Assembly (NCBI GenBank): GCA_026417625.1
Contig: JAOACW010000014.1
Location: forward strand, 1 to 37,635
Length of the DNA stretch: 37,635 nt
Direction: 5' to 3'
Origin: Syntrophales bacterium
Lineage (GTDB): Bacteria; Desulfobacterota; Syntrophia; Syntrophales; UBA8958
In this document: positions 21,521-37,467 of the stretch, in pieces
How the letters are laid out: each line of letters starts with the position of its first letter
How positions within the stretch are numbered: position 1 is the stretch's first letter
The notes under the pieces: model-generated
What the model was told of the DNA's origin: nothing
The model's database searches: none
The model's input: only the letters and a program-made list of their open reading frames with translations
Translations under genes and position numbers: made by a program

Positions 21521-21922
21521 ATCGCTTAAGTGCCACCATTTATGGGAAACTTCACGAAAAGATGAAATAAAGGTAAGGGTAACAAAATAAGGATGCGATC
21601 AGTGGATACAATCTATCAACTGCGAAAGATCATAACCAAATACTTTAACTTTCACCATTTCCTTAAACTTTGGTAAAAAGTTTTGACAATAAGGTTTTTG
21701 GTACATGCGTGTACTGCCGATAAAACTTCATAATCGCATAATTCTGTAAATACAATTAGCTACACGATCGTTTGTCATTTCTTATCCCCAAGATAAACAA
21801 AGCATCCTCCTATTTGGGTGTGAAGATTTTTCATCAAGATTTCAAACACCCGTAAAATCCCTGTAACACAAAACTGATATGCAGCATCCACGGAATAAAT
21901 ACATTCAACGGAGGATGTGTCT

Positions 21923-23197
21923 ATGAGAGAAAGATTTAAACGTTTCAAAATTACTTTCAGTCTGGTTACCACTCTATTTTTACTTACGGTGACCCTTTCC
22001 TGGTCAGCTGACGAAAACCTAATCAGATTGCTCCAAGAGAAAAAATACCTAACAGAAACAGAAGCTAGCAGTTTACTGGAGCAGGTAAAATCGAAAGAAA
22101 AAAAGGAAAGAGAAGAAATAAAAAAAGATATTCAAGACGAAGTGAAGAAAACACAACTCCCACCGGCATTGAAAGGACTCAAAGTAAGTTCCACGATATT
22201 CTTTTACTGGGAGAATAAAAATACCAATAAGGACAGCCTGAATAAATTCGTTCTGGAACGTGCATATCTAACCGTCGCTAAAGATTTTTCTGAAAACCTC
22301 GCCATGAACCTAACAGCAGACCTCTTCACTTCAAAGGATACCAACGATAAGGGAAACGGTCTGGAATTGAGGGTGAAATACGCCTATGTTGATGCAAAAT
22401 TTCTAGGTACCTCAACCAAAATAGGCATGGTACCAACACCCTCAGATGCATACGACAGCTCCATCTGGCCTTACCGAGTCCAAGGGAAAAATTTTCTTGA
22501 TGCTCTAGGAATTATGTCGTCCGCCGACCTGGGAATCGTCAACCAGGGGAATATAGGAGAAATGGAAAGTGATTATTATAAGTACGGTAGCAAAACTTTC
22601 GGAGGACGTTGGGGTGGATGGATGATAGGCTTATATAACGGCCCTGGGTACAATCAATCAGAAGAAAACAACAATAAAGTGATTTCTGGTCTCGTGTATG
22701 TCCGTCCCATGCCTACTATACCTATTCTCAAGGGCTTGCAACTTGCCTATGTTGGAAGCTATGGAAAAAGCAACAACAAATTTGATTCAAAATTTGGTCC
22801 CACAAAGGAGTATCCAACATGGAGAGTAAATGTCGCCCAGGCTTCTCTTGTGCATCCGTTCTTTACACTTATGGGTCAATACTACTTGGGGAAAGGGACC
22901 AAGGACTCTAAAGAAGAAAAAGAAAGGGAAGGTTATCTGGTGGCAGGTTTCATACGGGCACCTATGATTGAAAAGTTAAGAGTTTTCGGGAAATATTACA
23001 CATACGATCCCGACAAAAATAGAATAGCCACTCCTGCTAATAAGAAAGATGAGTACAGAGTGTACGTTTTAGGTTTATCCTACGACTGGAGCAAAGAATT
23101 CATGCCGTTCATTGCATGGGAAAGGGAAGATAACAAAGCTTACTCAACTCGAGAGGACTACGATCGTTATCAGGTAGGGTTCCAACTAAAATTCTAA
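21923..23197 (+). CDS. Outer-membrane porin
   Basis: This 424-residue protein has a signal peptide (basic start, hydrophobic run, cleavage near TLSWSA). A short charged, coiled-coil-like segment follows (about 20-70), then a barrel rich in alternating aromatic strands that ends YQVGFQLKF with a terminal Phe, the usual signal for outer-membrane insertion. Overall it resembles phosphate-selective/OprO-like porins of Desulfobacterota, but selectivity cannot be read. I choose the ATG at 21923 (GGAGG 8 bases before) over a GTG at 21917 only two bases from the ribosome site. It is divergent from gctA and could admit the substrate of that pathway (inference). Confidence 0.8.
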   Translation: MRERFKRFKITFSLVTTLFLLTVTLSWSADENLIRLLQEKKYLTETEASSLLEQVKSKEKKEREEIKKDIQDEVKKTQLPPALKGLKVSSTIFFYWENKNTNKDSLNKFVLERAYLTVAKDFSENLAMNLTADLFTSKDTNDKGNGLELRVKYAYVDAKFLGTSTKIGMVPTPSDAYDSSIWPYRVQGKNFLDALGIMSSADLGIVNQGNIGEMESDYYKYGSKTFGGRWGGWMIGLYNGPGYNQSEENNNKVISGLVYVRPMPTIPILKGLQLAYVGSYGKSNNKFDSKFGPTKEYPTWRVNVAQASLVHPFFTLMGQYYLGKGTKDSKEEKEREGYLVAGFIRAPMIEKLRVFGKYYTYDPDKNRIATPANKKDEYRVYVLGLSYDWSKEFMPFIAWEREDNKAYSTREDYDRYQVGFQLKF

Positions 23198-27433: not shown

Positions 27434-28549
27434 TTACTTTGCTAGATCTCCGATAAACTTTCCATCCCTGTATATTAGCTCATCATCGGCCCAGATCTCC
27501 CCTCCACTCCTGAGATCGCAAATAAAATCCCAGTGAATGGAAGAGACGTTTTTGCTTCCCGTTTCGGGATACCCCGCACCTATTGCAAGATGAAACGTGC
27601 CACCAATCTTTTCATCAAAGAGTATCTGTTTGGTAAAACGTTTTATTCCTTCGTTAGTTCCAATTGCAAACTCACCAACGTACGACGCCCCTTCATCGGT
27701 CTTAAGCATCTGGAGTAAGAATTCTCGGTTCTTCTCTGCCCTCGCTTCTACAACCTTACCTTCTTTAAAGACAAATTCCACTCCAGAAACCTCTCTACCC
27801 TGATAAATAGCGGGATAAGAAAACTTAACATAACCTTCAATTCCATGCTCCACAGGACCTGTAAAAACCTCACCATCAGGCATGTTGTGATGTCCGTCGC
27901 AACTGATAAAAACACGGTTATCAGTCTTAATAGTTAGGTCCGTCTCCGGACCTAGGATGCGAAAATGTCTCCTTTTCGACAGCCACTCGGCAAGACTCGC
28001 CTGCCACTCCGAAAACCTCTGCCAATAACCGATAGGATCACTATCATCTGGCATGCACGCCCCATAAACAAAATCCTCGTATTCCTCCAAACTCATCTCT
28101 GCATCCTGGGCATAGGCATTCGTTGGAAACAAAGCGAGTGTCCAGCGGAGATGACCTTCCGCAGCCCTTTTCAAAAAAATGTCCATCAACTCTTTTCGGC
28201 CCTGGTTACGGAGAACAACCTTTGCCGGATCTACATTACTAAGCGCCTTTGTGTTATCCGTTCCCACTATGTTTATCATCACATCGTAAGTCTCAACACC
28301 CATAAGAACCGGCGGGGGCACGTGCTTCAATTGCTCATCCGACCCGTAACGATACATAATCTCTTCCATTTCAGGAAAGTTTAGCATAATCAGGGGAAAT
28401 CCCCCAGTTTTTAACACAAAGGCCTGTATCTCTTTAACAAGAGGAATGGCAAGAACACTACTGTTAATCATGACCTTATCATTCGGTTTTACTCCTGAAG
28501 AGTATGCAACAATTAACTCCGCGTATTTTCTAATCCTCGAATCCACCAT
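27434..28549 (-). CDS. Aminopeptidase of peptidase family M29 (AmpS/PepS type)
   Basis: This 371-residue cytosolic metallo-aminopeptidase has the late family signatures: VGEFAIGTNEGI, GTFHLAIGAGYPETG and IHWDFICDL, which supply the Glu, His and Asp metal ligands. The length is a little below the usual 400-410, mainly at the N-terminus. It removes N-terminal residues from peptides. It heads a three-gene operon with the TGS GTPase and an unknown protein; linkage to a ribosome-related GTPase might point to peptide or nascent-chain turnover (inference). Confidence 0.82.
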   Translation of the reverse strand: MVDSRIRKYAELIVAYSSGVKPNDKVMINSSVLAIPLVKEIQAFVLKTGGFPLIMLNFPEMEEIMYRYGSDEQLKHVPPPVLMGVETYDVMINIVGTDNTKALSNVDPAKVVLRNQGRKELMDIFLKRAAEGHLRWTLALFPTNAYAQDAEMSLEEYEDFVYGACMPDDSDPIGYWQRFSEWQASLAEWLSKRRHFRILGPETDLTIKTDNRVFISCDGHHNMPDGEVFTGPVEHGIEGYVKFSYPAIYQGREVSGVEFVFKEGKVVEARAEKNREFLLQMLKTDEGASYVGEFAIGTNEGIKRFTKQILFDEKIGGTFHLAIGAGYPETGSKNVSSIHWDFICDLRSGGEIWADDELIYRDGKFIGDLAK

Positions 28550-28881: not shown

Positions 28882-29889
28882 TCACTCGTACAGCCACTCT
28901 ACACACCCCTTTACGAGTCCTTCTATCTCATAAACAGGGAAGGAAATCTCTCTGTACAGCGAAATTATACTTTCTGCATCGAGTCGGACAAAGTCCTGCT
29001 CGTTAATGGTAATGAACATGCCGCCCATCTCCACAGCGCCAGGGCTTATCGCTATTTTCTCATTACCCTCTCTATAAAAAGCATCGGGACGACCCTTAAT
29101 ACGTGGAAATATAACAATCCGCCAGAGACTATCAAAATAACTGGCTATAACATTTAAGAGCGGTTCACCTTCCACCTTCGAACAACGTGCAAGAACCTTC
29201 ACAAATCGTTGGATTGCCGTAAATAACCTTGAGGAATCATCTCCCGCAATTAAAACACCCCCACGTTCATTAAAAGATGGAACAGAAAAAATAACACCGT
29301 TTATCTCTATATATCTATCCCCTTTTCCCTTAGCCAGCACACTATCCGCAGGTAGCATACCAGTGGGGTAAATCTGAAAGTGATGGTGCTCGGGGATGGA
29401 TGCTCCACAGTGAGGACCGTTGTAAAATATACTAAAGCCGGGAGAGAAATCATAAGCCAGCTTCAACATCCAGGTTAATCCAGAAATGAAATCCTGAGGA
29501 ACGTGTTTAGCGGTTGTAGCAGTGAAGTGAGGAGTGAAAATTGGTCGAGGATTACACAGGACAAGGTACTCATCAAAATAAACAACGGCCTGTTGCTCAT
29601 AGGGTAATCTGGATAAACAGAGTGGACAAAAATCCTCCTCGTTAGTATTCGGCTCAGTTTTGGCTAATACATTTGCCATTCTCGCGGGATTCCACTGAAT
29701 CTTCAACACTTCATCACCAATCTTCACTTCCCTGTACCACGTACATTGCACCTGAGTCACAATCTCCGCATACTCACGCCAGCTCGCCAGCTGACTGTAA
29801 TGAAGGTGCCAACAAAGGTCGCTGAGTCTAACACCCCTGGTTGCTCCTTCATAAGTCGCAAAAATTCTTTTTGAGTGAGCAATATGCAT
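28882..29889 (-). CDS. DUF4922-type HIT-superfamily protein, putative nucleotidyltransferase/phosphorylase
   Basis: This 335-residue cytosolic protein has a CPLC pair (C88, C91) and the segment PEHHHFQIYP, in which H168-x-H170-x-Q172 is the H-x-H-x-Q form found in GalT, Ap4A phosphorylase and GDP-galactose phosphorylase rather than in HIT hydrolases. QWNPARMANV upstream is also typical of this group. It should therefore move a nucleoside monophosphate, for example by phosphorolysis of an NDP-sugar or dinucleotide. The substrate is unknown. It is the last gene of the wall-related operon, 9 bases after the GT2 gene, with no obvious ribosome site. Biochemical assignment is inference from the motif. 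Confidence 0.7.
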   Translation of the reverse strand: MHIAHSKRIFATYEGATRGVRLSDLCWHLHYSQLASWREYAEIVTQVQCTWYREVKIGDEVLKIQWNPARMANVLAKTEPNTNEEDFCPLCLSRLPYEQQAVVYFDEYLVLCNPRPIFTPHFTATTAKHVPQDFISGLTWMLKLAYDFSPGFSIFYNGPHCGASIPEHHHFQIYPTGMLPADSVLAKGKGDRYIEINGVIFSVPSFNERGGVLIAGDDSSRLFTAIQRFVKVLARCSKVEGEPLLNVIASYFDSLWRIVIFPRIKGRPDAFYREGNEKIAISPGAVEMGGMFITINEQDFVRLDAESIISLYREISFPVYEIEGLVKGCVEWLYE

Positions 29890-29898
29890 TTTTAAAAG

Positions 29899-31359
29899 CT
29901 AAACCATCAAATTCATCTTCTTCCTTGTGAGAATTTCCAGTGTTCTCAGACCATCCTTGTACGCATCGTTTTCATTTTTCCTGAGGATGGATAGGTTAGC
30001 ATCAGTGTTTCCTCCCCACCGCCGACACAGGTAAAGGTTCTCATAGATCCTTCCAATTGGGTAAAGACGGGAAATTACAAGGGCCACCGCATAATCCTCA
30101 CCATAGCCAACATCAGGAAAAGAAATCCTGCGTATAATATCCGTTCTGTACGCTCGGGGGGCCCCGATTCCATTCACTCTCAGAAGATTATTATGGCCGT
30201 TCTCCTCCGTCCACTCCCTGTGCTGCACTAAACCAGGAGGGATAGGTAAAAGATGTTCATCAACGGTAGTGTAAGAACCAACTACCATGGCAGCATTTCC
30301 AACACGGAGTCGATGAACAAGAGATTTAAGCACATGCGGACCGGCATACACATCATCAGAATCCAACTGAACTGCGAATCGCCCACAATAAGAGGAAAAA
30401 ACGGCCTCATTCCAGCAACCCCCTATTTTTAGATCTCTTCGACTGGGAATCACATGGATCACTTGCGGAAACTCCCTGGCCATGTTAACAATCACATCCG
30501 AGGTTCCATCCGTGGAATGATTGTCTACCACAATAACATTAAACTGAAAGTCGGTCTCCTGCATAAGTGCCGATCTAATGGCATCAGCAATGGTTTGAAC
30601 GCGATTCTTCACAGGAATAATAACACTAGCCTCCACAGGGTATCTATCATCTTCTAAAGGGGGTGGCATTTCTCTAGGCCCGAGGTAGGCCCCTATCCGT
30701 TTCAGGTGTACCGTGGCCGATCTTTCCATTTCTTCCTGATAACGCCAATTGACAGGATCCACATAATCAAAAATAGCAGAATCACCCTTCTTTACTACCC
30801 CTTGGTAGTCGACCTCATAAAGAAACTCACGGAGATGGTATACATGGTAATGAGTGGAAATTTTTAGACGTAAGTCATACCACCCGGCATATTCAACACC
30901 TGTCACGATGCCGTACATCGTTGTAACTCTCCCTGAAGCCTCTGTGGAATAAAGAACAACAGGCCCTAAATCAAAATCATCACGAATAGAACCGAGTTGG
31001 TAATCGTTCAACGGATGTTCTTGATCGCCAGATGCCTCCCGCTCTATATAATCTGCATATACCATACCTGCACCACTCTCCGCCGCCTGCAAAAAACGAC
31101 GTACGAAAAAAGGCCGAGGGCAAATAATACCCTTTTTAATAAACAAGAAAAAAGGGGTTCTCACAGAGTTCAAGACTGCACCTACAGTCTCACCCGCACC
31201 TATACTGCTTACGTACAGTCTCTCGCTGGTCAAATCTTCGGGAATGATCGGCGAAACGCTCCCATCCATCAGTACTAGCACTCTAAGATTAGGAATGTCC
31301 CTCTTCAATACTTCCCAATTACCAATCCCAGCACCTGACGGAATTACCAACGTTAACAT
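29899..31359 (-). CDS. Two-part family 2 glycosyltransferase
   Basis: This 486-residue protein has a clear GT2 domain in its C-terminal half (about 243-450: ASVIIPVKNR, IVVDNHSTDGT, metal-binding LDSDD at 332-336). The N-terminal 200 residues look like a second, degenerate GT-A fold (GAGETVGAVLNSVRTPFF, then GMVYADY) without a DxD motif. There is no membrane helix, so it acts in the cytosol, probably making a glycoside from the NDP-sugar supplied by the MurU-like enzyme. Donor and acceptor are unknown. Its ATG directly follows the kinase stop (TAGATG). Confidence 0.78.
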   Translation of the reverse strand: MLTLVIPSGAGIGNWEVLKRDIPNLRVLVLMDGSVSPIIPEDLTSERLYVSSIGAGETVGAVLNSVRTPFFLFIKKGIICPRPFFVRRFLQAAESGAGMVYADYIEREASGDQEHPLNDYQLGSIRDDFDLGPVVLYSTEASGRVTTMYGIVTGVEYAGWYDLRLKISTHYHVYHLREFLYEVDYQGVVKKGDSAIFDYVDPVNWRYQEEMERSATVHLKRIGAYLGPREMPPPLEDDRYPVEASVIIPVKNRVQTIADAIRSALMQETDFQFNVIVVDNHSTDGTSDVIVNMAREFPQVIHVIPSRRDLKIGGCWNEAVFSSYCGRFAVQLDSDDVYAGPHVLKSLVHRLRVGNAAMVVGSYTTVDEHLLPIPPGLVQHREWTEENGHNNLLRVNGIGAPRAYRTDIIRRISFPDVGYGEDYAVALVISRLYPIGRIYENLYLCRRWGGNTDANLSILRKNENDAYKDGLRTLEILTRKKMNLMV

Positions 31360-32343
31360 CTAAAACGCAACTGCCTCCCGGCAATGCATCAACAGCGAAC
31401 TTAGATTCTTGAGCGTTCCGAGCTTTTCCGCCACAGCTCCCAGATATTCAAGTGCCCGTGGAATGTAAGTAAGAAAAATACGCTTCCCCTTCACCGTTCC
31501 TAGAAATCCAAACGCTCCCAAGGCCTGCATCAAACGCTGTGCAGCAGCAGAGAGAAAAGTATAGTAAAAATCATCCCAATGGATACCGTCTCTTATCAAA
31601 TTATAATAGAACCTCAAAAGTTCCAGTCTTCGACCATCATCTATAGACACATAGGGATCGTACAGGATTGACGCCACATCATAAAGGGGATTACCCCAGC
31701 GCAATCCCTGGAAATCTACAAAATGAGGCTTACCGTCTTTTATCAAAATGTTTTGGGATTGAAAGTCTCTGTGTACATAACCGCTTGGACCATTCAGGAT
31801 ACAAGAACTGATTTCACGTGTCTCTTCCTCAAAGTGGCGAATTTCTTCACTACTTAGATCGATACCACAAACCCCTTTCACAAACCTCTCGAGAAAATAG
31901 GACCTCTCCCATATGTACAGATCTTCATCAAACGGCGGCATAGAACACGCACTCAACCTCTCCGCAAGGCTACCTCCAGATAGAGTGTGAAGGGGATATA
32001 TAGCCCTCAGAGATCTCCTGTAAAGTTCACATAGCTCTTCCCAGGAGCCATCACGGAAATCATAGAGAGAATGACGCCCCACATCCTCAACAACCAATAA
32101 CCCCGATTGTTTATCGTGATAAAAGACACGAGGTACAGGAACACCCAGCAGTCTTAATATCTCAGATTGAGCTTCGTAAAGTGAATTCTCCTCAACGTCC
32201 TTGTTGTACCTGATAACCACCACGGAACCCCAACTCCACTCAACTCTAAAAAAGAACCGATCAGAGCCTCCCCAATTTAACTCCTCCAAGCTGAGAGGCT
32301 CATCGCTACTTATGGAAAATAGGGATAGGAGAACATCCCTCAC
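31360..32343 (-). CDS. amgK: AmgK-like anomeric sugar kinase (APH fold)
   Basis: This 327-residue phosphotransferase has the kinase catalytic loop HRDFQSQN (191-198) and DFQ (210-212), followed by WGNPLYDVASILYDPY, as in AmgK. AmgK of the Pseudomonas recycling pathway phosphorylates MurNAc or GlcNAc at C1; drug-modifying APH enzymes look different. Direct linkage to a MurU-like gene (9-base gap) strongly supports a sugar-1-phosphate-forming kinase. Start is a GTG with AGGAGAG 4 bases upstream. The exact sugar is inferred; heptose or another hexose is possible. Confidence 0.72.
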   Translation of the reverse strand: MRDVLLSLFSISSDEPLSLEELNWGGSDRFFFRVEWSWGSVVVIRYNKDVEENSLYEAQSEILRLLGVPVPRVFYHDKQSGLLVVEDVGRHSLYDFRDGSWEELCELYRRSLRAIYPLHTLSGGSLAERLSACSMPPFDEDLYIWERSYFLERFVKGVCGIDLSSEEIRHFEEETREISSCILNGPSGYVHRDFQSQNILIKDGKPHFVDFQGLRWGNPLYDVASILYDPYVSIDDGRRLELLRFYYNLIRDGIHWDDFYYTFLSAAAQRLMQALGAFGFLGTVKGKRIFLTYIPRALEYLGAVAEKLGTLKNLSSLLMHCREAVAF

Positions 32344-32352
32344 AGATCTCTC

Positions 32353-33066
32353 CTAAAAAGGAATCTTGGAATTCAACGCCAAGTACGACTCTATAGTACC
32401 TACATCCCACCAGCTGCCCTCGTCGATCACCACTGCACCTAACTTCTCCGGCTCCTGCCTTAAAAGTTCAATCATAACTGAAACCATATCTGCCCAAGCA
32501 CCTGGTTCAAAACGCTTCAGAAAAGGGCGGGATACAACACAAATCCCTGTAAATACACAAATTTTGGAAAATTCTGCACCTAGAGCAAAGCGAATATCCA
32601 CAATGTCGCCTCTACTATTTAAACCTACGTTTCCCAGCTTATCGTCACTACGCAATGCAAGAGTAACTTCCCTGTCTTTCTTCCTGTGGTTCCTAACCAA
32701 AGGCAATAGTGGAAAATCAGCAATAACATCACCATTATAAACGAATATCTCATCGTCATTTTCCGTCAAAAGATCTTCAATGTTTTTCAATCCTCCACCT
32801 GTTCCAAGCAACACGGGCTCGTATCGGAACACAATGGGTATCCCCTTCCACTGCCCGTCGGAAAAAATCTGCCTGTATTTATGAGCCAAATAGTGAGTAT
32901 TTACTATAAAGCGCCTAACTCCTTCTCTAGCCAGATGCTCCATAGCATAGGAAATCAAAGGTCTACCCCACACAGAAAGCAGGGGTTTGGGGCACTCAAA
33001 TGTGAGGGGTCTTAAACGTTCTCCACATCCAGCACCTAGTATAAAGGCCGTTTCAATCATCTTCAT
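32353..33066 (-). CDS. murU: MurU-like sugar-1-phosphate nucleotidyltransferase
   Basis: This 237-residue enzyme has the nucleotide-binding signature LGAGCGERLRPLTFECPKP (residues 10-28), LLGTGGGLKNI and the metal-binding YNGDVIADF. It is the size of MurU, lacking the extra C-terminal domain of GlmU. With the AmgK-like kinase it would turn a free amino sugar into a UDP-sugar (UDP-MurNAc in the known pathway), bypassing de novo synthesis. The ATG overlaps the SpoIID stop (ATGA). HddC-type guanylyltransferase is an alternative reading. Confidence 0.72.
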   Translation of the reverse strand: MKMIETAFILGAGCGERLRPLTFECPKPLLSVWGRPLISYAMEHLAREGVRRFIVNTHYLAHKYRQIFSDGQWKGIPIVFRYEPVLLGTGGGLKNIEDLLTENDDEIFVYNGDVIADFPLLPLVRNHRKKDREVTLALRSDDKLGNVGLNSRGDIVDIRFALGAEFSKICVFTGICVVSRPFLKRFEPGAWADMVSVMIELLRQEPEKLGAVVIDEGSWWDVGTIESYLALNSKIPF

Positions 33067-34388
33067 AGGTAAAGCCTTTTGAGCTGAACGCCCCGGAAAA
33101 AGTGTTTTAGAATTTCTTCAGCGGAAAATCCCATCCTTGCCATACTGGCAGCGCCAACCTGACAGAGTCCGACCCCATGACCCCAACCGGCGCCGAAGAA
33201 GGTAAAATGCTCAGGAATTCCTTTTCCATCCCGATCTGCGACGACCACAAAAGCACTACTTAACAGAGAACTCTCCGAAAGCCACCGCCTAATCTCCAGT
33301 TCCTTACCCACAACCAAACTTCGCTTTGATCCGTCTATACGCAAACGCACGATGCGTCCTGAAGGTCCCCTTTCTATGGGTATTATGTCTTTCAATATAC
33401 CAAAGTCTATGCCCGATTTCCGGAAAATAATCTCCTCCAACTCTTCCCTCTTGTATTTGACAGACCAGCGGAATATTTGACGAAACTTTAGGTCGGACGG
33501 TGGTAAAATTTTCTCCAGAAATTCTCTATCTTCTACATTACAGTAAGCAGGAGGAGATGTAAACATCCATGACATTGCCGTTTCTTCGTCGTTACAGAAA
33601 CGAAATTCCACTTCCCCATCAGAAACAGCTCGAAGGTACGGCACCTGCAGAGGACCCCATACGTTGCCGTAATCCTCTGTGATACCCCCGCACACTTTAT
33701 GATATCGTGCATCGCATATGTTATCACCGTGACAAATCACATATCCCCTAGTACTCTCCACAGCGGCCTTAATCCTATCTGCACCCCTTAACGGTACACC
33801 TCTGTATCGTTGACAATGGTCATCAGCACACACATGAAAATGGCGATGATCTTCCCGATCGTACCATCGTATAACTTCTGCCTCTGTCTCTCGGCGATCG
33901 TTTACAATCTTCCCTCTGCCTTCCGGGTACATTATACCCGCAAGGATCCAGCTACGGGCCACAATTGCCTGAGCCATGAGGAACTCATCCGGAGCCAAGG
34001 GGTTCATTTCTGAAGCAACTACAATGGCAAGATAACGTTCCAAGGGGAGCTCATTAACGAGACGAAGGGTCTCTCCCTCTTCCAGTTCTACAACCATATG
34101 CCCGGGAAACATCTGAACGGTTCTTTCTGGACCGTCATAGGTTTTCCCCACCACCACATCGTTGAGAGAAAAGAAGGCCTCATCCTCACCCCTTAATATG
34201 AGGGTTTCATGGGCTACCGTAATGCTTCCTTCTCCATCCATCATGCATATTTTGCCATCACGGACATCTATGCGAAAAGTGTAAGGACCAAAAACTTCTC
34301 CGTGTATTGTAAACACACCCCGGAATTCACCGGAAATCCTCTTAGCATTCTCTATTATACCTACCTTGATCGACGGTTCCCCATTCAT
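33063..34388 (-). CDS. SpoIID/LytB-domain protein (putative lytic transglycosylase)
   Basis: The 441-residue product carries the SpoIID/LytB core: ERYLAIVVASEMNP, AQAIVARSW, a cysteine-bearing CADDHCQRYRG, HKVCGGIT and, near the end, GWGHGVGLCQVGAASMA. Founding SpoIID cleaves denuded glycan strands in endospore formers; in Gram-negative bacteria such homologues are poorly described. No signal peptide is visible, which is odd for a wall enzyme. The start is uncertain: I take ATG 34388, with TTG 34394 as alternative and no good ribosome site for either. It follows mazG by 12 bases and overlaps murU. Confidence 0.78.
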   Translation of the reverse strand: MNGEPSIKVGIIENAKRISGEFRGVFTIHGEVFGPYTFRIDVRDGKICMMDGEGSITVAHETLILRGEDEAFFSLNDVVVGKTYDGPERTVQMFPGHMVVELEEGETLRLVNELPLERYLAIVVASEMNPLAPDEFLMAQAIVARSWILAGIMYPEGRGKIVNDRRETEAEVIRWYDREDHRHFHVCADDHCQRYRGVPLRGADRIKAAVESTRGYVICHGDNICDARYHKVCGGITEDYGNVWGPLQVPYLRAVSDGEVEFRFCNDEETAMSWMFTSPPAYCNVEDREFLEKILPPSDLKFRQIFRWSVKYKREELEEIIFRKSGIDFGILKDIIPIERGPSGRIVRLRIDGSKRSLVVGKELEIRRWLSESSLLSSAFVVVADRDGKGIPEHFTFFGAGWGHGVGLCQVGAASMARMGFSAEEILKHFFRGVQLKRLYL

Positions 34389-34400
34389 AAACAACGTTCA

Positions 34401-35207
34401 CTACAAATCCTTAGTCTTTGCCTCCTCCCACAACCTATCCATTTCCTCCAGTGAAACTTCGCCTAACTTCATCCCCCGTTCCCTTATTTTTTCTGATACA
34501 TAGGTGAAACGACGAGCAAATTTATCCACAGTTTTGCGCATAAGCCCCTCGGCGTCTACACCAATAAAACGGCACAGATTGACCATTGCAAAGAGACAAT
34601 CACCAATCTCTTCCGCCACTCTGTCTCTGTTTTCGTCATGCAAAATTTCCCTAAGTTCCCTCCATTCTTCTTCTACCTTATCGACAACACCGTTTACGTC
34701 TGTCCAATCGAAACCAAAAGCCGACGCCTTTTCCTGAATAAGCTGAGCCTTCATAAGTGCAGGCATAGAACGGGAGACACCCGCAAGAAGATCGCTCTTG
34801 TCTTCTACTTTTCCCTCAATATCTCTTTTGATCACATCCCAGTTCTTTTTTATTACTTCCACGTCTTGGATCCTCTCCGGACCGAACACATGGGGGTGAC
34901 GACGTATCATCTTGGCCAATACATTGGTCACAACATCTTCCAGGCGAAACATACCCTCATCCTCTGCCATACGGATGAGAAAGAGTACCTGGAACAAAAG
35001 ATCTCCCAATTCTTCGCTAAGCCCCTTAACATCTTTTGCTACTATGGCATCAACGACCTCGTAGGTTTCCTCCAGTAAGTAGCGACATAAATCATCGAAA
35101 CTACGGCTACGATCCCAAGGACAACCATTTGGACCCCTTAGAATCTTTATAAGATAGATCAATTCCTCTATCCTATCTGCATGGGAGTCTTTGGCTTCTT
35201 TCGACAT
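34401..35207 (-). CDS. mazG: MazG nucleoside triphosphate pyrophosphohydrolase
   Basis: This 268-residue enzyme has two MazG repeats. The first has EETYEVVDAI and EELGDLLFQVLF acidic motifs; the second EEEWRELREI and EEIGDCLFAMV. The GPNGCPWDRSRS start is typical. It hydrolyses NTPs to NMP plus pyrophosphate. ATG 35207 has GGAG 7 bases upstream; an in-frame ATG at 35237 overlaps the preceding stop (ATGA) and would add ten residues. Its place inside the wall-related operon may be housekeeping or may tune nucleotide pools for NDP-sugar making. Confidence 0.88.
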   Translation of the reverse strand: MSKEAKDSHADRIEELIYLIKILRGPNGCPWDRSRSFDDLCRYLLEETYEVVDAIVAKDVKGLSEELGDLLFQVLFLIRMAEDEGMFRLEDVVTNVLAKMIRRHPHVFGPERIQDVEVIKKNWDVIKRDIEGKVEDKSDLLAGVSRSMPALMKAQLIQEKASAFGFDWTDVNGVVDKVEEEWRELREILHDENRDRVAEEIGDCLFAMVNLCRFIGVDAEGLMRKTVDKFARRFTYVSEKIRERGMKLGEVSLEEMDRLWEEAKTKDL

Positions 35208-35233
35208 TATCAACTCCACCCGTTTCTCTCTTC

Positions 35234-36565
35234 TCATTTTGCAATAAAGGCCATACCTGCAATATGCTTCAAATGATTCACGTCCTTATTGACCTTGAAA
35301 GTACCCAAATCCCTTCCCAAATGAAGAGTCGTAATTGCAGTGCGCCCGGATATTCTCTTCACCCGACCATCCTCATCCCTTAAAAGCAAACCTCCCATGC
35401 TATGAAGGACCACTGGTTCACCACCATGTGATCCCACATATAACATTATGTGCCCCCTCCGCCAGAGAAGAGTAAGGAAGGGTTCCCCGTCTTCTATGAT
35501 ATGCTGCTTCTTTTCATCTTCGTTCAACCCCGAAAGATCAACGAACAGACCTCCCTCCCTGGCTTGATCCGCAGAGTGTCTGGGTAACCATATACCGAAG
35601 GGTAGAAAAAGGTCCCTGAGGAGAGAGGAACAATCTCTCGTTCCATTCTTTCCACCCCATCCGTAGGATCCTCCCAAAAGCGCACTCGCCAACACTGCTA
35701 CGTTCCACCGATTGAGTGTTAAAGGCATGAGTACACCGTCATTTGTGCTTATCGTTCCACTACGCATGACGGCCATCCCTCTCAACCCTCGTGTCGCCAC
35801 ACCTAATGTAAACGTTTCTCCATCTGACCTTAAAAAGGGAAAAAGTGAACCAATATATCCCTTGAAATAACAGACTCCTCCACTACATACAGGTACTCCA
35901 TCACGAATGATGGCTACAAATTCACCCCGTGACCATTTTTCTATAAAATTTTTGTCCACCCTGGCTATTTTACTGGCTGGAACCCATCCATACGCAAAAT
36001 TTGTCTCCACTAGAACCCATTTTCCATCCCGGGACACATGGCTCACAAAGACGGGCGTATTGGGATAAACAGAAGACACCTGAACACTATCTACTAAATG
36101 AGCCATCTTTAACCTTCTCATTTTTTTATCTTCTACTGGAAGACCCCTTAAATCCGCATACATAACTGTAATGGCATGCCACCCTGCGTTCGGATACTCA
36201 TCCAAACAAGCTCTTCTTTGCAATCCTCTCAAAAGGCGCACCTTATCATCGTTATTTTTAAACTTTTGCACCATCTTGTCGCTGTAGTACTTAAATGCAT
36301 ATACAACATCCTCTCTATCTTTCATCGGTTCATCCTGAAACCACGGTGAAAAGTAAATCTTTTGAAACTTAGCAAACCTCCTTTCCTTTGCAGAATCACT
36401 GAGTCTTGCCTTAAATGCCTCAGGCCCACCTGAGAGGTACACAAATGGATCCTGGGGTAAAAACCATACATTCTCCCTATATGTAATGTTCATCGTCCAC
36501 CCAGGATGAAGAAACACTCCCAAGAGCAAATATGCACAAACGCAGAGAATAACAAATCTTCTCAT
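35234..36565 (-). CDS. Exported SH3-domain NlpC/P60 peptidase
   Basis: This 443-residue protein has an N-terminal signal sequence (hydrophobic about 5-23) and an N-terminal helical domain. SH3-like domains follow (about 150-280, e.g. GKWVLVETNFAYGWVPASKI), then an NlpC/P60 domain with the catalytic triad C312 (GTRDCSSLLRD), H372 (RRGHIMLYVG) and probably H388. It should cut peptide stems of peptidoglycan in the periplasm, often gamma-D-Glu-diamino acid bonds. It begins one base after the small membrane protein and overlaps the upstream mazG frame. Confidence 0.85.
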   Translation of the reverse strand: MRRFVILCVCAYLLLGVFLHPGWTMNITYRENVWFLPQDPFVYLSGGPEAFKARLSDSAKERRFAKFQKIYFSPWFQDEPMKDREDVVYAFKYYSDKMVQKFKNNDDKVRLLRGLQRRACLDEYPNAGWHAITVMYADLRGLPVEDKKMRRLKMAHLVDSVQVSSVYPNTPVFVSHVSRDGKWVLVETNFAYGWVPASKIARVDKNFIEKWSRGEFVAIIRDGVPVCSGGVCYFKGYIGSLFPFLRSDGETFTLGVATRGLRGMAVMRSGTISTNDGVLMPLTLNRWNVAVLASALLGGSYGWGGKNGTRDCSSLLRDLFLPFGIWLPRHSADQAREGGLFVDLSGLNEDEKKQHIIEDGEPFLTLLWRRGHIMLYVGSHGGEPVVLHSMGGLLLRDEDGRVKRISGRTAITTLHLGRDLGTFKVNKDVNHLKHIAGMAFIAK

Positions 36566-36566
36566 C

Positions 36567-36899
36567 CTATGATCGACCTTTGCTCAACTTTTTCTCCAAT
36601 TTTGCCTTTTTCTTGGTTTGTTTTTTTTCTAACTTGAATAGAGTTTTCCCGTAGCTCTGAGCCGGGACCATATCCAAACGTTGCGCATCCGTGCCACTCC
36701 CGCCCGTTCCCCGGTTGAGAGTATCTCCTGTTTCCCTAGGAAATTGATCTTTCGGGTTCCCATCCCCTAAAATGGGATTAACACCTCTTTTGTCTCTCCA
36801 CCTCCGCATCCATTCCATTACTCCTTTGGCCATAGCCTTACCGAAATGCCCGATAAACCCCGCCATGAGAACTGCAATAACCCATTTAATCACAGACAA
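36567..36899 (-). CDS. Small membrane protein with lysine-rich tail, unknown function
   Basis: I do not recognise this 110-residue protein. One N-terminal helix (VIKWVIAVLMAGFIGHFG) is followed by a basic amphipathic stretch (EWMRRWRDKRG), a Gly/Pro/Asn-rich linker and a C-terminal tail with about 13 lysines. The frame is open to a GTG at 36932 that overlaps mobB by 20 bases, but AAGGAG lies 8 bases before a TTG at 36899, which I prefer. It is one base from the NlpC/P60 gene, so it may anchor or regulate that enzyme (inference). Confidence 0.62.
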   Translation of the reverse strand: MSVIKWVIAVLMAGFIGHFGKAMAKGVMEWMRRWRDKRGVNPILGDGNPKDQFPRETGDTLNRGTGGSGTDAQRLDMVPAQSYGKTLFKLEKKQTKKKAKLEKKLSKGRS

Positions 36900-36912
36900 A
36901 ACAGCGACTCCT

Positions 36913-37467
36913 TCATTTGTCACCTGTTGCACCCCTAATAAGAAACTCTCTTTCTATCAAAAAGGCAAGTTCAAGCATGTCCCTCATAGTGAAGAAATGG
37001 ACCTTTGAGTTACAGGTACAATGTTCCGTCCCGATGATGGCCCAAACTTGGTCCACAGAGTTTTCCAAAGAATCAAAGCAATCACCTTCAGAGCAAACAA
37101 CTATCTTAGTACACTGACTCTCCCGCCAACCCTCAACAAGAATCAGATCCACATCGAACAGATAACAATCCCTTATCTCCCTTATATTTAACTCCCCGCT
37201 TGGCCTTTTAAACACAACAAGCTCTTCTGGGGATACAAAAACCACACCTTTAGCACCTGCTCTCCTGTGTCTCCACGTGTCCTTTCCCTCCATATCCAAA
37301 TTGGAATTTTTGTTACTGTGCTTTACTGTGGCTATCCTCCAACCCCAACCTGCAAGGATACTAACGAGACTTTCTATCACCCTAGTTTTTCCAGAACCAG
37401 AACGCCCAAGAATTGATATCACGGGTGTAGACTTACAAGGACCCTGAACCATCCAGTAAACCACCAT
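36913..37467 (-). CDS. mobB: Molybdopterin-guanine dinucleotide biosynthesis protein MobB-like GTPase
   Basis: This 184-residue P-loop protein has GRSGSGKT (21-28), ATVKHSN, a Walker-B-like VDLILVEGWRES and the GAKGVVFVSPEEL segment, all typical of MobB. MobB assists MobA in adding GMP to molybdopterin. The first 14 residues precede the usual MobB start, so an internal ATG at 37452 may be used. It appears to head the wall-related run but its role there is unclear; it may only share the promoter. Confidence 0.82.
   Translation of the reverse strand: MVVYWMVQGPCKSTPVISILGRSGSGKTRVIESLVSILAGWGWRIATVKHSNKNSNLDMEGKDTWRHRRAGAKGVVFVSPEELVVFKRPSGELNIREIRDCYLFDVDLILVEGWRESQCTKIVVCSEGDCFDSLENSVDQVWAIIGTEHCTCNSKVHFFTMRDMLELAFLIEREFLIRGATGDK

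Follow-up and report, generated by a model that had tools for sequence, protein, structure and literature searches.

A conserved SpoIID/LytB, GT2 and DUF4922 gene module that probably takes the place of NagZ in bacterial muropeptide recycling

We analyzed a 37,635-nucleotide stretch of DNA from a Syntrophales bacterium (the window, which is a whole contig) and found that it carries a gene module that recurs in several phyla and probably stands in for NagZ in the recycling of cell-wall muropeptides. The conserved core of this module consists of a SpoIID/LytB-type protein without a signal peptide, a two-domain GT2 protein and usually a DUF4922 protein, and many genomes add AmgK-like and MurU-like enzymes to it. 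A role in muropeptide recycling appears very probable, and replacement of the NagZ step is likely. On balance, we favor the combined reading of the core as a cytosolic recycling module that does the job of NagZ, with reverse-GT chemistry that we infer. The observations behind this reading are gene linkage, gene fusions, conserved active-site residues, folds, mutual exclusion with NagZ and a cytosolic location as predicted from the missing signal peptide.

Gene content of the locus

Seven open reading frames on the minus strand at positions 28882-36565 were confirmed, with intergenic gaps of 9, 0, 9 and 6 bases and two 4-base overlaps. The tight packing described in the initial annotation was thus reproduced, the largest gap being 9 bases, and its family calls for all seven genes agree with the Pfam and NCBIfam profile scores. 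The run is not bounded at 36565 as had been supposed, since a 121-aa open reading frame (36567-36932) and MobB (36913-37467) prolong it, leaving less than 170 bases before the contig ends. Between positions 28400 and 37635, promoter-like sites showed no excess (13 versus 14.0 expected from shuffles), and 12 terminator-like sites were found versus 7.8 expected (sd 2.5), a count that carries no weight.

The AmgK-like anomeric sugar kinase (31360..32343; 327 aa, GTG start) has the APH fold family match (PF01636, 69 bits) and both characteristic motifs, HxDxxxxN and DFQ, as HRDFQSQN and FVDFQG, and scored 95.3 bits against NF045759, far under the equivalog cut-off of 550. For the MurU-like sugar-1-phosphate nucleotidylyltransferase (32353..33066; 237 aa), NF045761 was the top-scoring NCBIfam model, yet its 122.9 bits fall under the cut-off of 250; the solved relatives are MurU and GMPP. 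For both members of this pair, initially described as AmgK-like and MurU-like, the scores lie far below the curated equivalog cut-offs. We call the kinase AmgK-like, with a putative activity of C1 phosphorylation of MurNAc or GlcNAc.

Two further genes of the run were identified as local passengers outside the conserved unit. The MazG NTP pyrophosphohydrolase (34401..35237; 278 aa; NF007113, 299 bits versus a cut-off of 208) had only 2 relatives among the fetched neighborhoods. The NlpC/P60 endopeptidase with SH3b1/SH3b2 Pfam domains (35234..36565; 443 aa) had 1 in the same set; it has a hydrophobic N terminus, is predicted to be exported, and has as its solved relative 3m1u, a putative gamma-D-glutamyl-L-diamino acid endopeptidase (E 2.2e-65). 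Both had been proposed as pathway members, and both were rejected as such because they are rarely found near the core in other loci.

Conserved core and its proteins

A scan of genome contigs with an alignment recovered 594 relatives, and a single-sequence scan recovered none. More than 110 loci were fetched, and in almost every one DUF4922 adjoins GT2 or is fused to it, a grouping far beyond chance. The 114 DUF4922 neighborhoods contained SpoIID (49), AmpG-type MFS (35), BadF-type sugar kinase (22), MurU (18), AmgK (17), AmiA-like amidase (16), NamZ (11) and MurQ (11). The module occurs with shuffled gene order in Desulfobacterota, Bacteroidota (including human gut Bacteroides such as Bacteroides fragilis), Ignavibacteria and one planctomycete, and its neighbors across phyla include AmpG-type permeases, MurQ, a NagK/MurK-type kinase, NamZ and amidases. 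Often one polypeptide comprises both GT2 and DUF4922, as in relatives from the order Syntrophales and in B. finegoldii, and a 1262-aa Prevotella protein is a triple GT2-DUF4922-SpoIID fusion. Such recurrent co-localization in unrelated genomes of several phyla confirms the earlier assignment of DUF4922 and GT2 to the company of AmgK, MurU and SpoIID, although some clusters keep GT2-DUF4922-SpoIID without AmgK/MurU. SpoIID and GT2 were present together in all 36 positive genomes and both missing from 16, with weak SpoIID-family fragments in 2 of these 16 GT2-negative genomes.

The SpoIID/LytB-type protein (33063..34394; 443 aa, TTG start) scored 81 bits against Pfam and 168 bits against TIGR02669 (cut-off 83.3). 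It shares with the SpoIID lytic transglycosylases of spore formers the SpoIID/LytB domain, the catalytic Glu and a metal motif of the CxDxxHCQxY type; E129 (SEM) and the VCADDHCQRY motif are invariant or nearly so among homologues, and the catalytic Glu and the Cys/His motif align with solved SpoIID chains from C. difficile and B. anthracis. It differs from those enzymes in its N-terminal domain, in its tie to cytosolic recycling enzymes, and in its score against the spore_II_D equivalog (126.1 bits, under the cut-off of 234.75). A hydrophobic N terminus of the signal peptide kind was absent from the window protein and from 46 of 46 homologues, and the protein is therefore predicted to be cytosolic, so that it could not cut glycan outside the membrane as was initially proposed. 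A sporulation role was also rejected, since this SpoIID protein without a signal peptide sits in recycling clusters of phyla not known to sporulate.

The GT2 protein (29899..31359; 486 aa; PF00535, 69.1 bits) carries a DxD motif. Its C-terminal domain has DSDD (333-336) and GEDY (420-423) invariant over 43 sequences, and its N-terminal half is GT-A-like and without DxD. In the AF2 model (pLDDT 92), the predicted fold resembles UDP-GlcNAc enzymes, with K4 chondroitin polymerase, TarP/TarS and the heparosan synthase GlcNAc-transferase as neighbors. These enzymes have in common with it the GT-A fold with DxD, and K4 chondroitin polymerase also has two GT-A domains. In contrast to them, the window protein has the DxD-less N-terminal half, is strictly linked to DUF4922/SpoIID and is proposed to act in the reverse direction.

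The DUF4922 protein (28882..29889; 335 aa) scored 122.5 bits against PF16269 (cut-off 23.6). Its HHHFQ motif (H168, H170, Q172) and C88, C91 and H121 are invariant in 55 sequences, and the AF2 model (pLDDT 93) best matches the Ap4A phosphorylase Apa2 (Z 22.4, rmsd 3.3 over 272 residues), followed by GalT and ADP-Glc phosphorylase. The HxHxQ triad and the fold, both common to Apa2, suggest a nucleotidyl phosphorylase-like enzyme of the HIT/GalT superfamily, with NDP-sugar phosphorolysis as a putative activity. Plant GDP-L-galactose phosphorylases (VTC2/GGP) have been placed in the DUF4922 superfamily and thus share this domain assignment (PMC11047344). Unlike VTC2/GGP, GDP-D-glucose phosphorylase, Apa2 and GalT, the protein is fused or linked to GT2 and a SpoIID-like protein. 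The earlier idea of NDP-sugar recovery by phosphorolysis fits this fold, with the chemistry itself conjectural. DUF4922 is absent from 8 of 41 GT2-positive genomes; therefore, phosphorolysis cannot be obligatory.

Mutual exclusion with NagZ

NagZ is the standard enzyme that splits imported wall sugars. Of 297 Desulfobacterota genomes, which include 28 of the 44 on which the exclusion hypothesis arose, 171 have AmpG; among these, 128 had only a GH3/NagZ-type gene, 33 only GT2, 5 both and 5 neither, GH3 being the glycosidase family that the counts cover. The exclusion is significant (Fisher p 1e-24), with genome counts that are not independent, the genomes being related by descent. In three of the five genomes with both genes, GH3 is of the BglX/xylosidase type; genome G185 has GT2 and a NagZ-like GH3 adjoining AmpG, and genome G201 has GT2 and a weak GH3 match. 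At the family level, all 51 GT2-negative AmpG-positive families contain GH3, whereas in 8 of 9 GT2-positive families most members lack it (p 3.5e-9). Of the 10 Bacteroidota genomes that lack a NagZ-like gene, 9 carry GT2 (p 4e-8), but the exclusion is only partial in this phylum, as 18 of 27 GT2-positive genomes retain a NagZ-like GH3. Some Ignavibacteria have a GH3-beta-lactamase gene inside the module cluster.

The window's own genome (G000; 1.79 Mb, 97.8% complete) gave no PF00933 match for GH3 and encodes AmpG (TIGR00901, 472 bits versus a cut-off of 350) at G000:C1:282913-284103. Together with the AmpG, MurQ, NamZ, kinase and amidase neighbors, the NagZ exclusion strongly supports the cell-wall salvage setting put forward initially, which the recurrent co-localization in unrelated genomes likewise leaves standing. 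AnmK (PF03702) was absent from this genome and from the AmgK-bearing relatives tested; it is rare in the Desulfobacterota tested, with or without the module, and present in tested module-bearing Ignavibacteria.

Proposed mechanism and alternatives

For the reaction direction, the nucleotide and the part played by each protein, we propose the following. The module would separate GlcNAc from (anhydro)MurNAc in AmpG-imported disaccharides, and MurNAc would pass to AmgK/MurU in Desulfobacterota and to a kinase and MurQ in Bacteroidales. An inverting GT2 running backwards would transfer beta-linked GlcNAc to a nucleoside diphosphate, giving NDP-alpha-GlcNAc, which DUF4922 would phosphorolyse via a nucleotidyl-histidine to GlcNAc-1-phosphate and NDP, pulling the GT2 reaction. 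The net activity would be that of a disaccharide phosphorylase, sparing the ATP spent after NagZ hydrolysis, and the SpoIID-like protein may act on the 1,6-anhydro-MurNAc end or on longer fragments. Reverse GT action with phosphorolysis is a tentative proposal; synthesis is the usual direction of GT2 enzymes, and we know of none that works chiefly as a phosphorylase. Rather doubtful, too, is the full composite phosphorylase, with a reverse GT2, a fused GalT-like phosphorylase, catalytic NDP and a cytosolic SpoIID reopening the anhydro ring.

It is unlikely, though conceivable, that the SpoIID-like protein is itself the glycosidase replacing NagZ, as a cytosolic lytic transglycosylase or hydrolase, with GT2 and DUF4922 acting on the released sugar or making an acceptor. 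Its lytic-transglycosylase family, its invariant Glu and metal-binding motif, its presence with GT2 in every positive genome and its adjacency to AmpG in two phyla would fit. However, SpoIID enzymes cleave the MurNAc-GlcNAc bond, leaving anhydroMurNAc, and the imported disaccharide has only the bond that SpoIID does not cut; the equal indispensability of GT2 would also go unexplained.

A low probability likewise attaches to the SpoIID-like protein standing in for AnmK/MupP by opening 1,6-anhydroMurNAc for AmgK, with an indirect link to NagZ. AmgK requires a free reducing sugar, the window genome and its tested AmgK-bearing relatives are without AnmK, and reversed lytic transglycosylation is chemically plausible. 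But AnmK is also missing in most tested NagZ-positive Desulfobacterota, which have no such SpoIID, and it coexists with the module in Ignavibacteria; this explanation was therefore demoted from main story to rival.

Quite improbable is a biosynthetic module in which GT2 builds a cytosolic glycoside from MurNAc/GlcNAc recycled by AmgK and MurU, SpoIID trims it and DUF4922 controls the NDP-sugar pool. Such synthesis is normal for GT2 enzymes and agrees with the adjacency of GT2, nucleotidyltransferase and kinase in the window, but it predicts neither the near-perfect NagZ exclusion in AmpG-positive genomes nor the existence of clusters that keep the core yet have lost AmgK/MurU. The glycoside building suggested initially is less likely than breaking because the module would replace a glycosidase. 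A chance or lineage effect, with unrelated housekeeping genes and NagZ lost for other reasons, could draw on MazG and MobB in the run and on shared descent but is largely refuted by linkage kept despite altered order in several phyla, by the fusions, and by the agreement of the family-level test and a second phylum.

Relation to known recycling systems and significance

Like the NagZ/AnmK/MurQ and AmgK-MurU (MupP) routes of E. coli and Pseudomonas, the module is associated with cytosolic GlcNAc-(anh)MurNAc processing and shares its gene clusters with AmpG import and a MurNAc kinase with a nucleotidyltransferase or MurQ. It differs in that NagZ and AnmK are missing, their positions in the cluster being filled by the SpoIID-like protein, GT2 and DUF4922. 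In Tannerella forsythia, a xanthan lyase-gtf-gtf-lytB-ampG-ybbC operon was demonstrated by RT-PCR (PMC5388701), and AmpG imports GlcNAc-anhMurNAc and GlcNAc-MurNAc, the fate of anhMurNAc without AnmK being left open in that report (PMC7670621). The gene order at Tanf_08345-08385 (xanthan lyase, gtf, gtf, lytB, ampG, ybbC, murT, murK, murQ) equals that of Bacteroidales module loci, and by this analogy the second gtf is probably DUF4922. AmpG, MurT, MurK and MurQ have been characterized, and the accessible parts of the published work give gtf, gtf and lytB no function. Open-access papers searched for SpoIID in connection with AmpG/MurU, or for NagZ recycling in Bacteroides, included none on the module.

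The analysis puts forward three specific proteins for the steps that would complete GlcNAc-anhMurNAc processing in Bacteroidales without AnmK, such as Tannerella forsythia. If correct, it would reveal a non-homologous replacement of NagZ, a function for bacterial DUF4922 and a SpoIID-type enzyme moved into the cytosol, and it may show glycoside phosphorolysis via a sugar nucleotide in energy-limited anaerobes. To our knowledge, an energy-conserving wall-recycling route of such a kind has no described precedent; a composite phosphorylase, if true, would be such a route, with a distribution that takes in Bacteroidales of the gut and mouth as well as anaerobic Desulfobacterota.

The gene run and its conserved core

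The seven minus-strand genes at 28882-36565 that the initial annotation had read as a candidate cell-wall sugar salvage operon are present in the window, no more than 9 bases apart and overlapping by 4 bases at two junctions, and family searches returned the same families (DUF4922, two-domain GT2, AmgK-like, MurU-like, SpoIID/LytB, MazG, and NlpC/P60). The AmgK-like and MurU-like proteins were not counted as family members because their scores lie under the curated cut-offs. Upstream, the run extends towards the contig end through a 121-aa ORF, which contains a hydrophobic stretch and matches no Pfam family, and then MobB (36567-37467, minus strand). The window is one entire contig of a 1.79-Mb genome that is 97.8% complete. 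It also carries a sodium:solute symporter as two adjacent ORFs of 282 and 227 aa matching consecutive parts of PF00474 (13018-14559, minus strand), which reflects a frameshift, a pseudogene, or an assembly error, and a 426-aa ORF with zero Pfam matches (21917-23197, plus strand).

This GT2 adjoins DUF4922 in nearly all DUF4922 neighbourhoods fetched from Desulfobacterota, the phylum in which relatives place the window, and from named genomes, and the two form a single ORF of about 800-866 aa in same-order relatives. In Bacteroides finegoldii, SpoIID/LytB and an AmpG-like MFS transporter come after a GT2-DUF4922 fusion. A single 1262-aa polypeptide of Prevotella sp. oral taxon 299 unites GT2, DUF4922, and SpoIID (locus L068, 7486-11271, plus strand). 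Besides the window-type order SpoIID-MurU-AmgK-GT2-DUF4922, we found SpoIID-AmpG-MurU-AmgK-GT2-DUF4922, GT2-DUF4922-SpoIID-AmpG, divergent halves, and, in Ignavibacteria, SpoIID-GT4-(GT2)-DUF4922. Outside the window and its nearest kin, NlpC/P60 and MazG do not occur near the core.

Several loci carry further genes. In Ignavibacteria (L126, 2449-3561; L101, L103, L134, L135, and L144), SpoIID and GT2/DUF4922 are separated by a GT4 glycosyltransferase, which in several cases occupies the place of GT2. A GNAT acetyltransferase separates GT2 from DUF4922 in five clusters (L074, 3975-4481; L075, L077, L078, and L080). At least 13 Syntrophales-order loci (L034, L038, L085, and others) have LeuS and an LptE-like lipoprotein gene, then the module, then an M15 D-Ala-D-Ala carboxypeptidase gene. 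At L153 and L154 (genomes G104 and G133, same phylum), GT2, SpoIID, and DUF4922 occur at separate places and a BglX-type GH3 is present.

Clustering of every gene within about 9.5 kb identified as neighbours, in addition to GT2 and SpoIID and by locus count, the AmpG-family permease (35), BadF-type sugar kinase (22), M15 peptidase (19), MurU (18), AmgK (17), AmiA-like amidase (16), NamZ exo-muramidase (11), and MurQ (11), as well as a NagX-like acetyltransferase and an Amidase_3 'xanthan lyase'. The Bacteroidales order, amidase-GT2-DUF4922-SpoIID-AmpG-NamZ-kinase-MurQ, agrees with that of the T. forsythia operon (xanthan lyase, gtf, gtf, lytB, ampG, ybbC, then murTKQ), for which co-transcription was demonstrated by RT-PCR (PMC5388701); judging from gene order, its second gtf would correspond to DUF4922. 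GH3-beta-lactamase fusion genes (945 aa) follow or lie near the AmpG-like gene at L075 (14011-16845), and similarly at L074, L076, L107, and L136; coexistence of the module with a NagZ-like GH3 is therefore possible in some Ignavibacteria/Bacteroidota clusters.

Predicted location, active sites, and folds

A hydrophobic N terminus is lacking in all 46 SpoIIDs of the module, whereas the window NlpC/P60 has one; the SpoIID protein should therefore be located in the cytosol. The SpoIID glutamate at the catalytic position and the CADDHCQRY motif are fully or almost fully conserved, and in alignments both coincide with their counterparts in SpoIID of C. difficile and B. anthracis. In DUF4922, the HxHxQ and CxxC...H positions are invariant, and its model (pLDDT 93) best matches the fold of Apa2 (Z 22.4), followed by ADP-glucose phosphorylase and GalT; plant GDP-L-galactose phosphorylases are reported to belong to the DUF4922 superfamily too (PMC11047344). 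The GT2 model (pLDDT 92) combines a GT-A-like N-terminal half lacking DxD with a C-terminal GT2 domain resembling K4CP, TarP/TarS, and the heparosan GlcNAc-transferase.

Distribution relative to NagZ

In an initial set of 44 genomes, the GT2-bearing Desulfobacterota seemingly lacked GH3/NagZ. We scored 297 Desulfobacterota genomes for GH3, GT2, and AmpG, including 28 of those 44, so that the hypothesis first arose on part of the tested set. Among the 171 AmpG-bearing genomes, 33 had GT2 only, 128 GH3 only, 5 both, and 5 neither (p = 1e-24), counts that come from related genomes and incomplete MAGs, with the glycosidase survey confined to GH3. Three of the five genomes with both carry BglX/xylosidase-type GH3 (43-57 bits against a NagZ cut-off of 207), another has one weak GH3 match, and the last (G185, an assembly in 630 contigs) has a NagZ-like GH3 beside AmpG. 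The five genomes with neither come from families in which the other members carry GH3; for two of the five, completeness is just 73-76%. At the level of families, GH3 occurred in 51 of 51 GT2-lacking AmpG-bearing families, whereas only 1 of 9 GT2-bearing families was majority-GH3 (p = 3.5e-9).

GT2 and the SpoIID without a signal peptide occur together in 36 genomes and are both absent from the other 16 tested, two of which hold weak SpoIID-family fragments. DUF4922 is absent from 8 of 41 GT2-bearing genomes and is therefore accessory. In Bacteroidota, exclusion is partial: of 10 genomes lacking a NagZ-like gene, 9 carry GT2, compared to 18 of the 188 that have such a gene (p = 4e-8).

Proposed replacement of NagZ

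NagZ hydrolyses the beta-1,4 bond from GlcNAc to (anhydro)MurNAc; the proposed replacement set pairs an inverting-type GT2 with a nucleotidyl phosphorylase. Alongside the linkage, fusions, location, folds, and exclusion computed here, we infer a route in which the inverting GT2, running in reverse on beta-GlcNAc, would yield NDP-alpha-GlcNAc, which the phosphorylase would pull to GlcNAc-1-P. MurNAc would pass to AmgK and MurU in the window genome; in Bacteroidales its recipients would be a kinase and MurQ. The cytosolic SpoIID may act by hydrating the anhydro end or by cutting longer fragments. In genomes without DUF4922, the end point would be NDP-GlcNAc, which is a wall precursor in its own right if the nucleotide is UDP. 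The Prevotella fusion protein offers a ready-made single-gene construct for assays.
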